Positions 6,164 through 30,667 of a stretch of 64,000 bases of DNA are shown piece after piece. A program made the position numbers and the translations under genes. Source of the stretch: Burkholderiales bacterium (lineage in GTDB: Bacteria; Pseudomonadota; Gammaproteobacteria; Burkholderiales; JAHFRG01). The notes beneath the pieces were generated by a model, which was not told where the DNA came from, searched no databases, and worked only from the letters and a program-made list of their open reading frames with translations. The stretch is from assembly GCA_035543335.1 (NCBI GenBank), contig DASZZH010000023.1:1-64000 (forward strand), read 5' to 3'. Position 1 is the first letter of the stretch, and each line of letters opens with the position of its first letter.

Positions 6164-6224
6164 GCCTTTCTCCCCGGTGCGGCCCATCTAAAGCGATATT
6201 GTTGGCCTAAATTCACCCAACGGC

Positions 6225-6254
6225 AATGTCCGCTTTGAGTCGATAGCGGACATT
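6225..6254. repeat. Perfect hairpin repeat (10-bp arms)
   Basis: AATGTCCGCT and AGCGGACATT are perfect inverted arms around a 10-nt loop. The same unit, with one arm mismatch, occurs at 21548-21577, and imperfect versions at 18344-18394 and 18878-18934. At both 6225 and 21548 it is followed by an inverted tRNA-Asn 3' half, so the pair is a composite repeat. Confidence 0.8.
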
Positions 6255-6320: not shown

Positions 6321-6365
6321 TTATCGGAGGCTTGCCGCGGGCAATGTAGCCAAATTTGTACCATT
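6321..6365 (-). pseudogene. Possible tail of a lost integrase
   Basis: A minus-strand frame reads NGTNLATLPAASLR then stop, which resembles the last residues of the intact island integrase (NGTNLAQQ). It sits on the outer side of the left tRNA-Arg repeat. It may be the C-terminal stub of an older, deleted element integrated at the same place. Very short, so low confidence. Confidence 0.3.
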
Positions 6366-6463
6366 TTGAGACTGGATTAAATGATATTCAGGCTTTACGT
6401 GACTGTTTTTTAGTTTAGCGGGCGTCACAGGTTGTTGATTTAAAGGGAGCTACTTTTCACATT

Positions 6464-6511
6464 TCCGTCTCCGAAGCCAAAAGTCACTGGTTCGAATCCA
6501 GTAGGGCGCGC
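6464..6511 (+). other. Left att-like direct repeat, tRNA-Arg(CCG) 3' half
   Basis: This 48-bp block contains the anticodon loop CTCCGAA (anticodon CCG), the T-arm ACTGGTTCGAATCCAGT and the acceptor 3' strand AGGGCGCG, followed by CCA. It repeats at 30620-30667 with two differences. Homology to a tRNA starts at the anticodon loop; no 5' half is present. A tyrosine integrase starts 43 bp away, as expected for an attachment site. Confidence 0.8.
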
Positions 6512-6554
6512 CATTTAAAACATGGCGTTGCAAAAATTCAGCACGTTTTGTTTT

Positions 6555-7858: not shown

Positions 7859-8611
7859 TTAGGGCTTCGAGTTGGCGGAAATCTTCCGGGTGGAGCGGGT
7901 GAGCTTTCTGACCAAATCTTCTGTTACCGGGTTGTCGTGAAAGTTAAAGGAAGCGTTCACGGTGTTGGCGACGACTTCGTTCAAGGGTTTTCCAAAGCGT
8001 CGTTTGACGTAGCGGGCCAAATCCTGGATGTAGGCGGTGCGGTCGGCGTTCTTGTCTCGGAGCTTGCGCGGGCCTACGGGCGGGGCTTGTAGAGCGAGTT
8101 CTGCAGCCTGGATCAGGTTATTGAGTACGTTTTCGATCCCTGTCTCCCTCTGGAGATCGGCAAGGGTCTGTTTTAGGGTGAAGGCGTGAACGATCGTTTG
8201 ATTTTCTTTCCGCAGTGCGAAGGAATGGGTGACTACCTGGTTAAGCAGATGTTCCAAGGCGGCTAGCCCGGCAGCAGGGTTATTTCCGCCAATCGCCTCC
8301 AACTCTTTGAGCAGCTCTTTGCCTAGCTTTGCAACTCGCTTTAGCGCCCGGCGCTGGGAGGACAGGGCGGGGAATTTTCGCCAGTAGCCGTGCCACATGA
8401 GGGTGTAATGGAGGCGGGCGTATTCGAGATAGTCCACCAGATCCTGAGGCTGGGGAGCATATTTCGCCAAGGCGGCCCACGCGGCTCTCATCCCTGCATC
8501 GGTGGTAAGCCTTTTGAGCCGCTCGGTCATCTTTTCACCCAGCCCCCCGCTATCGATGAGCTGGGTAGCGTGGTCGGCTACAATTTGAGGCAACCAAGGG
8601 GGAAAACGCAT
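7859..8611 (-). CDS. Hypothetical island protein
   Basis: About 250 residues, no family recognised. The start at 8611 (MRFPPWLPQ) is the first ATG; a TTG at 8641 is also in frame, and neither has a strong ribosome-binding site. It is largely helical and charged (RRALKRVAKLGKELLKELEAIGG; KLRDKNADRTAYIQDLARYVKRRFGKP), with no signal peptide or membrane segment. It lies downstream of the phased GTAG array at 8825-8908, transcribed away from it, so the array could regulate it. It could be a replication or maintenance protein of the island, but nothing in the sequence proves this. Confidence 0.6.
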   Translation of the reverse strand: MRFPPWLPQIVADHATQLIDSGGLGEKMTERLKRLTTDAGMRAAWAALAKYAPQPQDLVDYLEYARLHYTLMWHGYWRKFPALSSQRRALKRVAKLGKELLKELEAIGGNNPAAGLAALEHLLNQVVTHSFALRKENQTIVHAFTLKQTLADLQRETGIENVLNNLIQAAELALQAPPVGPRKLRDKNADRTAYIQDLARYVKRRFGKPLNEVVANTVNASFNFHDNPVTEDLVRKLTRSTRKISANSKP

Positions 8612-8824
8612 TATGGGGGCACAAAAATCATAAACTACCAAAGAGCAACCAGCAGCGCTTGGATTAAAACTTATCCTGACGCTTTAGCACAGTTTGACGC
8701 GAAAATTCAGAAAAGCTATCTCGGAAATCTTCCCACGCGGTCAAAACACGCTGCGTTAACGCTTTTATGAGCTCTTATAGACGGTAATTGGCGTACAAAG
8801 CGCACCTGAACACCTACCCGCCCT

Positions 8825-8908
8825 GTACGCTTTTACTACGTTTCTTCTACATTTCTCCTACATTTTATCTACTATAGCATCTACTGTTTGACCTACTTTT
8901 CGACCTAC
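8825..8908 (-). repeat. Phased GTAG iteron-like array
   Basis: On the minus strand GTAG occurs seven times, with start-to-start spacings of 12, 12, 12, 11, 11 and 11 bp, followed 11 bp later by GTAC. The spacer bases are A-rich. The spacing is close to one helical turn, so all boxes would face the same side of the DNA. A 14-codon frame (MRYLLKFTTRSVKK) starting at 8949 after GGGGGACCTG ends at the first GTAG box. Confidence 0.7.
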
Positions 8909-9068
8909 TTTTTCACGCTGCGGGTCGTGAATTTCAGAAGGTATCGCATCAGGTCCCCCAAAATATCGCCTGCGCGGCATTAATGCGCGTTGAAGGGCGC
9001 TTTAAAAGGATGTTTGGCTACGAACAAATGCTGTCGCGGATTCGAATGCTGCCGGGCGCGCCCGGCAG

Positions 9069-9225
9069 GCGAAACTGGGCATTTCTGGGAATTGGCCGTG
9101 CCGCTCGCGTGATGGCGCTCCTGCCACGTATTCTCATATACACCTGGGTTTCGGAGATGGCGGCAATCGGCCAAAAGCGGCCGGTCGAGTATTTCCCCCA
9201 TAGCAGTCACTCGATCACGTTATTG
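9069..9225. repeat. Dispersed repeat B, copy 2, with a shared tail
   Basis: Bases 9069-9190 match 369-490. The tail, containing CGGTCGAGTATTTCCCCCAT and GTCACTCGA, recurs at about 16464-16515. It separates the GTAG array from the integron integrase. The rest of 8612-9301 has no gene. Confidence 0.65.
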
Positions 9226-9301: not shown

Positions 9302-10243
9302 TCACAGTGCATCAAGTGGGCTGGTTACCCGCTTGGTCACCTCCAAGACATGCGTATAGATCATCGTGGTCTGGAGGTTGCGGTGCCCGAGCAAGAGTTG
9401 AATTTTCCGGATGTCCGTCCCCGACGCGAGCAGTTGTGTAGCGAACGAATGTCTCAGCGTGTGAACAGTCGCGTGCTTCAAGATTCCCGCGCGTTCCGCA
9501 GCCTGACGGAATGCGCGCTGGATCGTCGCGGGCGATACATGCCAACGGGCCAGGCGCCCACTTTGACCCCAAGGTCGGCACACGGAAGACGGGAACACGA
9601 ACTGCCAACCGAGGGACTCGAATGCCTTCGGATATTTACGTTCAAGCGCACCGGGTAACGGTGCGAGGCCCGCTCCACGGCTTCGGTCATCGGTATGCAA
9701 TTGCGCAACCTGCATCAGGTGCGCCTGCAAGTCCGCCTGTAAGCGGGCGGGAAGGACGGTCGCCCTGTCTTTCCCGTCCTTGCCATTGCGAACGTTAATG
9801 ATCGACGAGCCGAAATCAATATCTTTGACCCGCAAGGTGCAACACTCCTCGACCCTGAGGCCCGAGCCAAACATCAACTGTGCCATTAGCGCCCTTGTCC
9901 CAGACATCTGCGACAAAACCGCCGAAACCTCGCTCGCTGTCATCACCACAGGAATACGCTTGCGCTGCTGCACACGATTCAGTCCGCTCATCTCGCCGAG
10001 CGGAACAACCAGTACATCGCGATAGAGAAACACAAGCGCATTGAGAGCCTGCGTCTGGGTCGACGCTGCGACTTTGCGCTGAACCGCCAAGTGGTTCACA
10101 AACTGCGTCACCTCGGCCTCTCGGAGTTCCCGAGGATGACGTTTGCCGTGGAAGAAAATGAATTGCCGAATCCAGAACCGATAGGCTTCTTCTGTGCGGG
10201 GACTGAGGTGCCGACGTCGGCAGACCGCATGAACCTGATCCAT
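9302..10243 (-). CDS. intI: Integron integrase IntI
   Basis: Tyrosine recombinase that inserts and excises gene cassettes at attI/attC. 313 residues from the first ATG. Motifs: FGSGLRVEECCTLRVKDIDF (first Arg), VHTLRHSFATQL (His-x-x-Arg), LLGHRNLQTTMIYTHV (Tyr). The insert LPGALERKYPKAFESLGWQFVFPS between the catalytic motifs is the extra segment that separates IntI from other tyrosine recombinases. The gene points away from the cassettes, as in standard integrons. The N-terminus may be damaged: a well-placed ATG at 10301 with CCAGGAG upstream reads into a stop, but would join this frame if the G-run held one G fewer. Confidence 0.93.
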   Translation of the reverse strand: MDQVHAVCRRRHLSPRTEEAYRFWIRQFIFFHGKRHPRELREAEVTQFVNHLAVQRKVAASTQTQALNALVFLYRDVLVVPLGEMSGLNRVQQRKRIPVVMTASEVSAVLSQMSGTRALMAQLMFGSGLRVEECCTLRVKDIDFGSSIINVRNGKDGKDRATVLPARLQADLQAHLMQVAQLHTDDRSRGAGLAPLPGALERKYPKAFESLGWQFVFPSSVCRPWGQSGRLARWHVSPATIQRAFRQAAERAGILKHATVHTLRHSFATQLLASGTDIRKIQLLLGHRNLQTTMIYTHVLEVTKRVTSPLDAL

Positions 10244-30619: not shown

Positions 30620-30667
30620 TCCGCCTCCGAAGCCAAAGGTCACTGGTTCGAATCCAGTAGGGCGCGC
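30620..30667 (+). other. Right att-like direct repeat, tRNA-Arg(CCG) 3' half
   Basis: Matches 6464-6511 over 48 bp with two differences (C for T before the anticodon loop, G for A in the variable region). Here the acceptor end is GCGCGCTAAG, so the CCA is missing. It abuts the ABC transporter operon. Together the two copies delimit about 24.2 kb. From 30200 to 30498 nothing else was recognised. Confidence 0.8.

Follow-up and report, generated by a model that had tools for sequence, protein, structure and literature searches.

A helically phased GTAG box array upstream of excisionase and integrase genes: a candidate docking site in a tRNA-Arg genomic island

We asked what could read the run of GTAG boxes that lies, about one box per helical turn, between an integron integrase gene and a minus-strand gene cluster in the window (the whole 64,000-nucleotide stretch of Burkholderiales DNA that was analysed), and what it might do there. 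The initial annotation had placed seven GTAG boxes plus a GTAC in 8825-8949, spaced 12-12-12-11-11-11-11 bp. All of these boxes are present at that spacing, and one further GTAG (8814-8817), missed at first, lies one more 11-bp step beyond them, so that the array consists of nine GTAG/GTAC boxes on the minus strand at 8814-8908; the limits also shift at the other end, as 8909-8949 (∼40 bp) is free of boxes. On the minus strand the GTAG boxes start at 8908, 8896, 8884, 8872, 8861, 8850 and 8839, followed by GTAC at 8828 and GTAG at 8817 (steps of 12-12-12-11-11-11-11-11 bp). Constancy is confined to the boxes; the spacers vary and have an A-rich mid-part (GTAGATAAAAT, GTAGGAGAAAT, GTAGAAGAAAC, GTAGTAAAAGC). 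When all 4-mers were scanned across the window at spacings of 10-12 bp, the longest chain was the array itself, with seven exact GTAG, and the runner-up had four; in the same scan of all 256 4-mers, none of 60 Markov windows gave a chain longer than four. In the 2.25-Mb genome, four GTA[G/C] boxes at 11/12-bp spacing were matched seven times, always within two array regions, one in the window and one on contig C15, and nowhere else, and the control matches to this pattern numbered zero. This confirmed that the array is real and well above chance expectation.

Features of the array and its surroundings in the window
Feature	Position	Strand	Remarks
Attachment-site copy, 45 bp of the tRNA-Arg(CCG) 3' end	6469..6513	+	Forty bases past the integrase stop
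Tyrosine integrase, 343 aa	6555..7586	-	PF00589 E 1e-28; overlaps the excisionase gene
Excisionase-type HTH_17 protein, 107 aa	7463..7786	-	PF12728 E 4.5e-7; PHROG excisionase E 3e-10
Rare hypothetical protein (250 aa if started at the ATG at 8611)	7859..8611	-	Homologues precede HTH_17/AlpA genes and are array-free
End motif GTACGCCAA	8788..8796	-	Starts at 8796, 21 bp (two turns) past the last box
Imperfect inverted repeat GCGTACAAAGCG / CGCCCTGTACGC	8791..8830	.	Flanks the array end; 12 nt, 83%
Phased array	8814..8908	-	GTAG x7 (8836-8908), GTAC (8825-8828), GTAG (8814-8817)
Mini-ORF, 14 codons, MRYLLKFTTRSVKK	8905..8949	-	GGGGGA upstream; first box supplies the TAG stop; at chance level and not regarded as functional
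Integron integrase gene	9302-10243		Other side of the array; TIGR02249, 387 bits against a cutoff of 265
Second direct copy of the tRNA-Arg(CCG) 3' end	30623..30667	+	Likely distal island boundary

The second array region belongs to another island of the same genome (locus L019 on C15), whose excisionase and integrase are 52% and 61% identical to those of the window and whose module abuts tRNA-Arg. Here two arrays lie upstream of the excisionase-integrase genes: one at 6187-6250 (GTAG, GTAG, GTAG, GTAG, GTAC, GTAG, GTACGCCAA; 11-bp spacing from 6198 on) and one at 6336-6384 (GTAG, GTAG, GTAC, GTAC, GTAG; 12-11-11-11). The end order GTAG-GTAC-GTAG-GTACGCCAA is common to the window and C15, with the last step in the window spanning two turns. 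As the same array stands in a second island of the same genome, we regard it as a real candidate docking site of the islands' mobility module. The original proposal of a helically phased array for protein binding is supported at the level of sequence.

The same cannot be said of the mini-ORF, which does close at the first box as first described, and for which an attenuation leader had been offered as one meaning. ORFs of this kind occurred in 19% of shuffled upstream sequences; such a frame is expected by chance because every box carries a TAG stop and the 11/12-bp spacing walks this TAG through the frames. No peptide resembling its product was found in frame at the C15 array. With its frequency at the chance level and its peptide not conserved, we rejected the attenuation leader.

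From the array, the genes on the minus strand run in the order 7859-8611 protein, excisionase, integrase. Besides the integron integrase, the island (probably 6469-30667) has metE, an operon for RND-type efflux and some small genes of unknown function. A complete tRNA-Arg(CCG) gene was found at one place only, on C15, adjoining the second integrase; probably two tRNA-Arg(CCG) islands stand in tandem and are divided between contigs C15 and C23. The GTAG boxes were also considered as integrase arm sites and rejected, as the likely arm motif, judged by eye, is TGGCACAAA, which lies near the attachment site and the integrase end. On the integron side of the array, a ∼113-bp dispersed repeat begins (window 9068-9180) that occurs at six genomic places with 85-94% identity (also C3, C11, C14, C21 and C23:368-486); several copies adjoin tRNA-3'-end-like sequence (window 9038-9063; a tRNA-Asn end at C3), and the repeat may mark island ends. 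A perfect 20-bp palindrome, CTGCCGGGCGCGCCCGGCAG, at 9049-9068 overlaps the tRNA-3'-end-like sequence. At locus L020 on C3 (5200-5262), a GTAG-GTAG pair 11 bp apart leads into four TTGGCGAGYG units at 10-bp intervals; this phased array adjoins the ∼113-bp repeat and the tRNA-Asn-like 3' end, i.e. an attachment-type site.

Which neighbour, then, goes with the array? The initial annotation had pointed to the 7859-8611 protein and to homologues of it as the place to look for further arrays. Two homologues were examined, that of C11 in the same genome (36% identity) and that of a second genome, G630, and both precede an AlpA/HTH_17 gene with no array beside them; conversely, the arrays on C15 and at two further loci (L027 and L056, described below) have no protein of this type. 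The proposed partnership therefore fails, and the protein was rejected as the array's partner on the two array-free homologues. It matched no Pfam or NCBIfam family, no homologues were found in plasmids, phages or viral contigs, and its predicted structure model is poor (pLDDT 51). The association that holds is with the downstream excisionase and the tRNA-targeting integrase genes.

This pairing of excisionase and integrase occurs widely among Burkholderiales and related betaproteobacteria, and we compared ∼175 loci that carry it. Chains of at least seven boxes were seen at four loci, versus ∼0.3 expected per shuffled set; two of these (L167 and L331) are distant relatives or have the chain far from the genes, and were left out as arrays of this kind. 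Besides the window and C15, L027 and L056 have 11-bp arrays in the same position as the window array, built from boxes other than GTAG (TAGGAA; CCGGTTTTT), and their excisionases and integrases show 65-68% and 71-73% identity. In L027, a short element flanked by an ankyrin-repeat gene and tRNA-Thr, TAGG recurs every 11-11-11-12 bp; in L056, which has type I restriction genes upstream, CGG boxes recur every 11 bp, eight of them in register. The array loci number four only, several of them from metagenome assemblies, and the excisionase and integrase are the only genes common to all four. A four-box GTAG match was seen in 15 further genomes of the order, and at none of the loci inspected was an excisionase or integrase gene within ∼1.5 kb; no similar DNA was found in plasmids. 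L027 (5420-5640) and L056 (5450-5650) also share a ∼215-bp leader ahead of the excisionase gene (80% identity over 217 bp). It shows an inverted repeat, GCGAACTTCGC / GGCGAGTTCGC, and is preceded by a promoter of the TTGACA type. This leader could be a structured RNA; it gave one short weak match elsewhere among 399 genomes of the order, and an Rfam scan of C15, L027 and L056 returned tRNA and no other family.

Next to these four loci, the remaining relatives show what else occupies the slot upstream of the excisionase-integrase pair. At the 86 loci with an integrase identity of at least 50%, the slot held Rep_trans initiators directly upstream of the excisionase gene (18 loci), other Rep-like genes (15), a second integrase (8), a MOBP oriT with traK (5), the array (4) or none of these modules (36); Rep_trans and integrase domains were assigned by Pfam, and the other Rep-like family by position and gene shape, with no convincing Pfam match. 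A Rep initiator (33), a second recombinase (8) or oriT/TraK (5) thus fills the slot in 46 of the 86 loci, and an array never shares it with such a module. This exclusive use is modest evidence, with p ∼0.04 in a hand calculation that ignores relatedness; related loci and not independent events were counted. Mobilizable elements also use Rep_trans-type proteins as their relaxases (PMC7563843), so that this position may in general be one for mobilisation functions.

Among the readings of the array, we place first, and tentatively lean toward, an assembly site of the transfer- or replication-origin type that is read by an accessory protein acting in trans, by analogy with the TraK-bound repeats of oriT; an excisionase filament is its main rival. 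The array would be a cis-acting docking site of the island's mobility module, on which a DNA-binding protein would assemble in head-to-tail order with a subunit for each helical turn, all on one face, so that ∼100 bp of DNA may be wrapped or bent, and its role would lie in starting transfer or replication of the excised island. In MOBP (IncP-type) oriTs, TraK binds the phased repeats of the nic-traK interval, and the reader of the array would likewise be supplied in trans. That the box type tracks the genome and not the recognition helix of the excisionase points to such a reader acting in trans.

In five relatives, all of one genus (L304 (=L084), L305, L312, L315 and L316), an IncP-type oriT with traK immediately precedes the excisionase and integrase genes, and these islands are likely mobilizable elements. 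Against a profile built from six MOBP oriTs they gave E values of 5e-11 to 6e-18 (L084, itself in the profile, also scored 3e-18; the other four are outside it), and in L084 the same stretch was found between traJ and traK in an annotated conjugative plasmid. Their nic-traK segments have a 10/11-bp periodicity (z 2.4-3.6), and over MOBP plasmids and oriT-bearing relatives together this stretch shows a 10-12-bp periodicity. Two MOBP plasmid oriTs contain ACGGTAAAACA-like 11-bp units, which resemble GTACGGGAAAT in C15 and CCGGGAAAAAA (reverse strand) in L056; the array, too, consists of direct repeats ∼11 bp apart with A-rich tracts. The origin reading is weakened by the oriT repeats being weaker than the array, by the oriT examples coming from one genus and by the A/T tract of L056 lying on the opposite strand. 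The MOBP nick region (GTTGAGC..GCGAATAAG..ATCYTGCC) was not found near the arrays by the profile in the window, C15, L027 or L056, the scores being E 3 or worse and far from the arrays in the first three and none in L056. TraK tblastn detected traK in the five oriT loci and at none of the four array loci, and a search of the genome for the relaxase family PF03432, in an assembly that may miss a helper, returned no match. As these searches turned up neither a nick site nor TraK nor a relaxase of the MOBP type, we do not claim that the array is an oriT.

Alternatively, like Apl, Cox and lambda Xis, the HTH_17 excisionase itself could fill the boxes in head-to-tail order, forming a filament that controls excisionase-integrase transcription, i.e. 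an autoregulatory, prophage-like switch; we consider this possible, if somewhat unlikely. The boxes are indeed head-to-tail direct repeats one helical turn apart, a winged HTH excisionase lies beside the integrase (by HTH_17, PHROG and fold), and the two are the sole genes that the four array loci share. Direct repeats spaced by one turn, at promoters as well as attachment sites, are targets of excisionases such as Apl (PMC7498355, PMC11963761). For Apl, seven direct repeats of 10-11 bp lie between pR and pL and a further five at att (PMC7498355); RdfS occupies attP as well as the promoter of its own gene (PMC11963761). The structures nearest to the excisionase model are BldC-DNA, Pukovnik Xis, the GIsul2 excisionase, RdfS and lambda Xis, at Z 5-7, which the tool does not rate as high, and several of these proteins bind direct repeats about one turn apart. 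However, regulatory sites of the Apl/Cox type resemble the attachment sites, whereas here no three- or four-box GTAG pattern lies near any attachment-site copy: such patterns were restricted to the two arrays, although isolated weaker sites may be present. Box and excisionase are also uncoupled, as the window and C15 have the same boxes and a differing recognition helix, the window, L027 and L056 have the same recognition helix and differing boxes, and most relatives with a near-identical helix have no array. Finally, the array lies ∼0.5-1.1 kb from the excisionase gene and, in our reading of L056 and L027, 110-360 bp upstream of a promoter-like TTGACA.

The regulator-binding array and the iteron-type origin of the initial annotation are both retained, with less weight. 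A regulator acting in trans, from the host or a helper plasmid or phage, could use the array as an operator that switches on excision, comparable to IncC AcaCD on SGI1-type islands, for which helper control of excision is established (PMC5389848, PMC7826253). Two islands of one host with the same boxes and other boxes elsewhere would suit such a regulator, as would the position upstream of the excisionase-integrase genes in both islands, but the distance to the excisionase gene varies, nine tandem boxes exceed what a normal activator needs and no candidate regulator was found, which makes this quite unlikely. We regard as improbable that the boxes are iterons of the replication origin of the excised island, with an initiator from elsewhere (e.g. 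phage O/DnaD-like) or the 7859-8611 protein. Rep_trans initiators do fill this slot in relatives, and viral contigs have 11-bp phased GTAG/CTAC arrays at codons 125-160 of ∼300-codon genes. These CTAC/GTAG boxes every 11 bp were seen in L170, L172, L188, L190, L191, L195, L207, L209, L216 and L236, where we read the host genes as phage replication initiators and the arrays as, probably, origins inside the initiator gene. Against iterons, no initiator gene stands beside the array (neither Rep_trans nor L024-type Rep was matched at the array loci), no long ORF crosses it, homologues of the 7859-8611 protein have no arrays and the unit pattern of the window and C15 is unmatched in the viral contigs. 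A functionless short tandem duplication, i.e. simple-sequence noise, is highly improbable: Tandem Repeats Finder does call weak 11/12-bp tandem repeats in the array, but conservation is restricted to the boxes while the spacers vary, and the chance tests and the second locus with the same boxes and end order, given which this reading was already disfavoured, speak against it.

Returning to the origin-type site, what would such an array mean for the islands that carry it? The coding content of many genomic islands is limited to integrase and excisionase, and their route between cells is often obscure. The islands in C15 and L027 are small (∼2.4-2.6 kb, little more than array, leader, excisionase and integrase), and they might be origin-only hitchhikers that, with no relaxase or replication gene aboard, copy the site of a helper's origin protein. 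We hold this extension to be unlikely; if true, the box type would differ between hosts and be shared by the islands within one host. More generally, a phased array in the Rep/oriT slot would serve as a sequence mark for hidden origins of transfer or replication, and it would offer a direct bait for its reader protein.

How does the array compare with known systems? Phage iterons of O/DnaD-like initiators share with it the CTAC/GTAG boxes every 11 bp, but they lie inside the presumed initiator gene whereas no ORF covers the window array. Centromeres of the ParR/parC type are likewise built on 11-bp repeats; neither a ribbon-helix-helix ParR gene nor a ParM gene is apparent among the genes that surround the array. 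The phage 186 operators of Apl (and the Cox sites of P2 type) resemble it in having seven head-to-tail repeats of 10-11 bp in the regulatory region of an excisionase/integrase system (PMC7498355), and differ in that Apl sites are also present at att, while here no such boxes lie at att and the box type does not follow the excisionase. BldC, RdfS and Pukovnik Xis-type proteins form polymers in which each subunit takes up about one turn of DNA (PMC11963761), and the island excisionase is predicted from its model to have this HTH_17-type fold; RdfS, however, has no consensus motif, in contrast to the sharply conserved box of the island array. In MOBP (IncP-type) oriTs the repeats are less regular, and the array loci differ from them in having no nick region, traK or PF03432 relaxase, but both place a short box and an A-rich tract in about every turn of an intergenic region, and in five relatives the oriT occupies the very slot in which the array stands.
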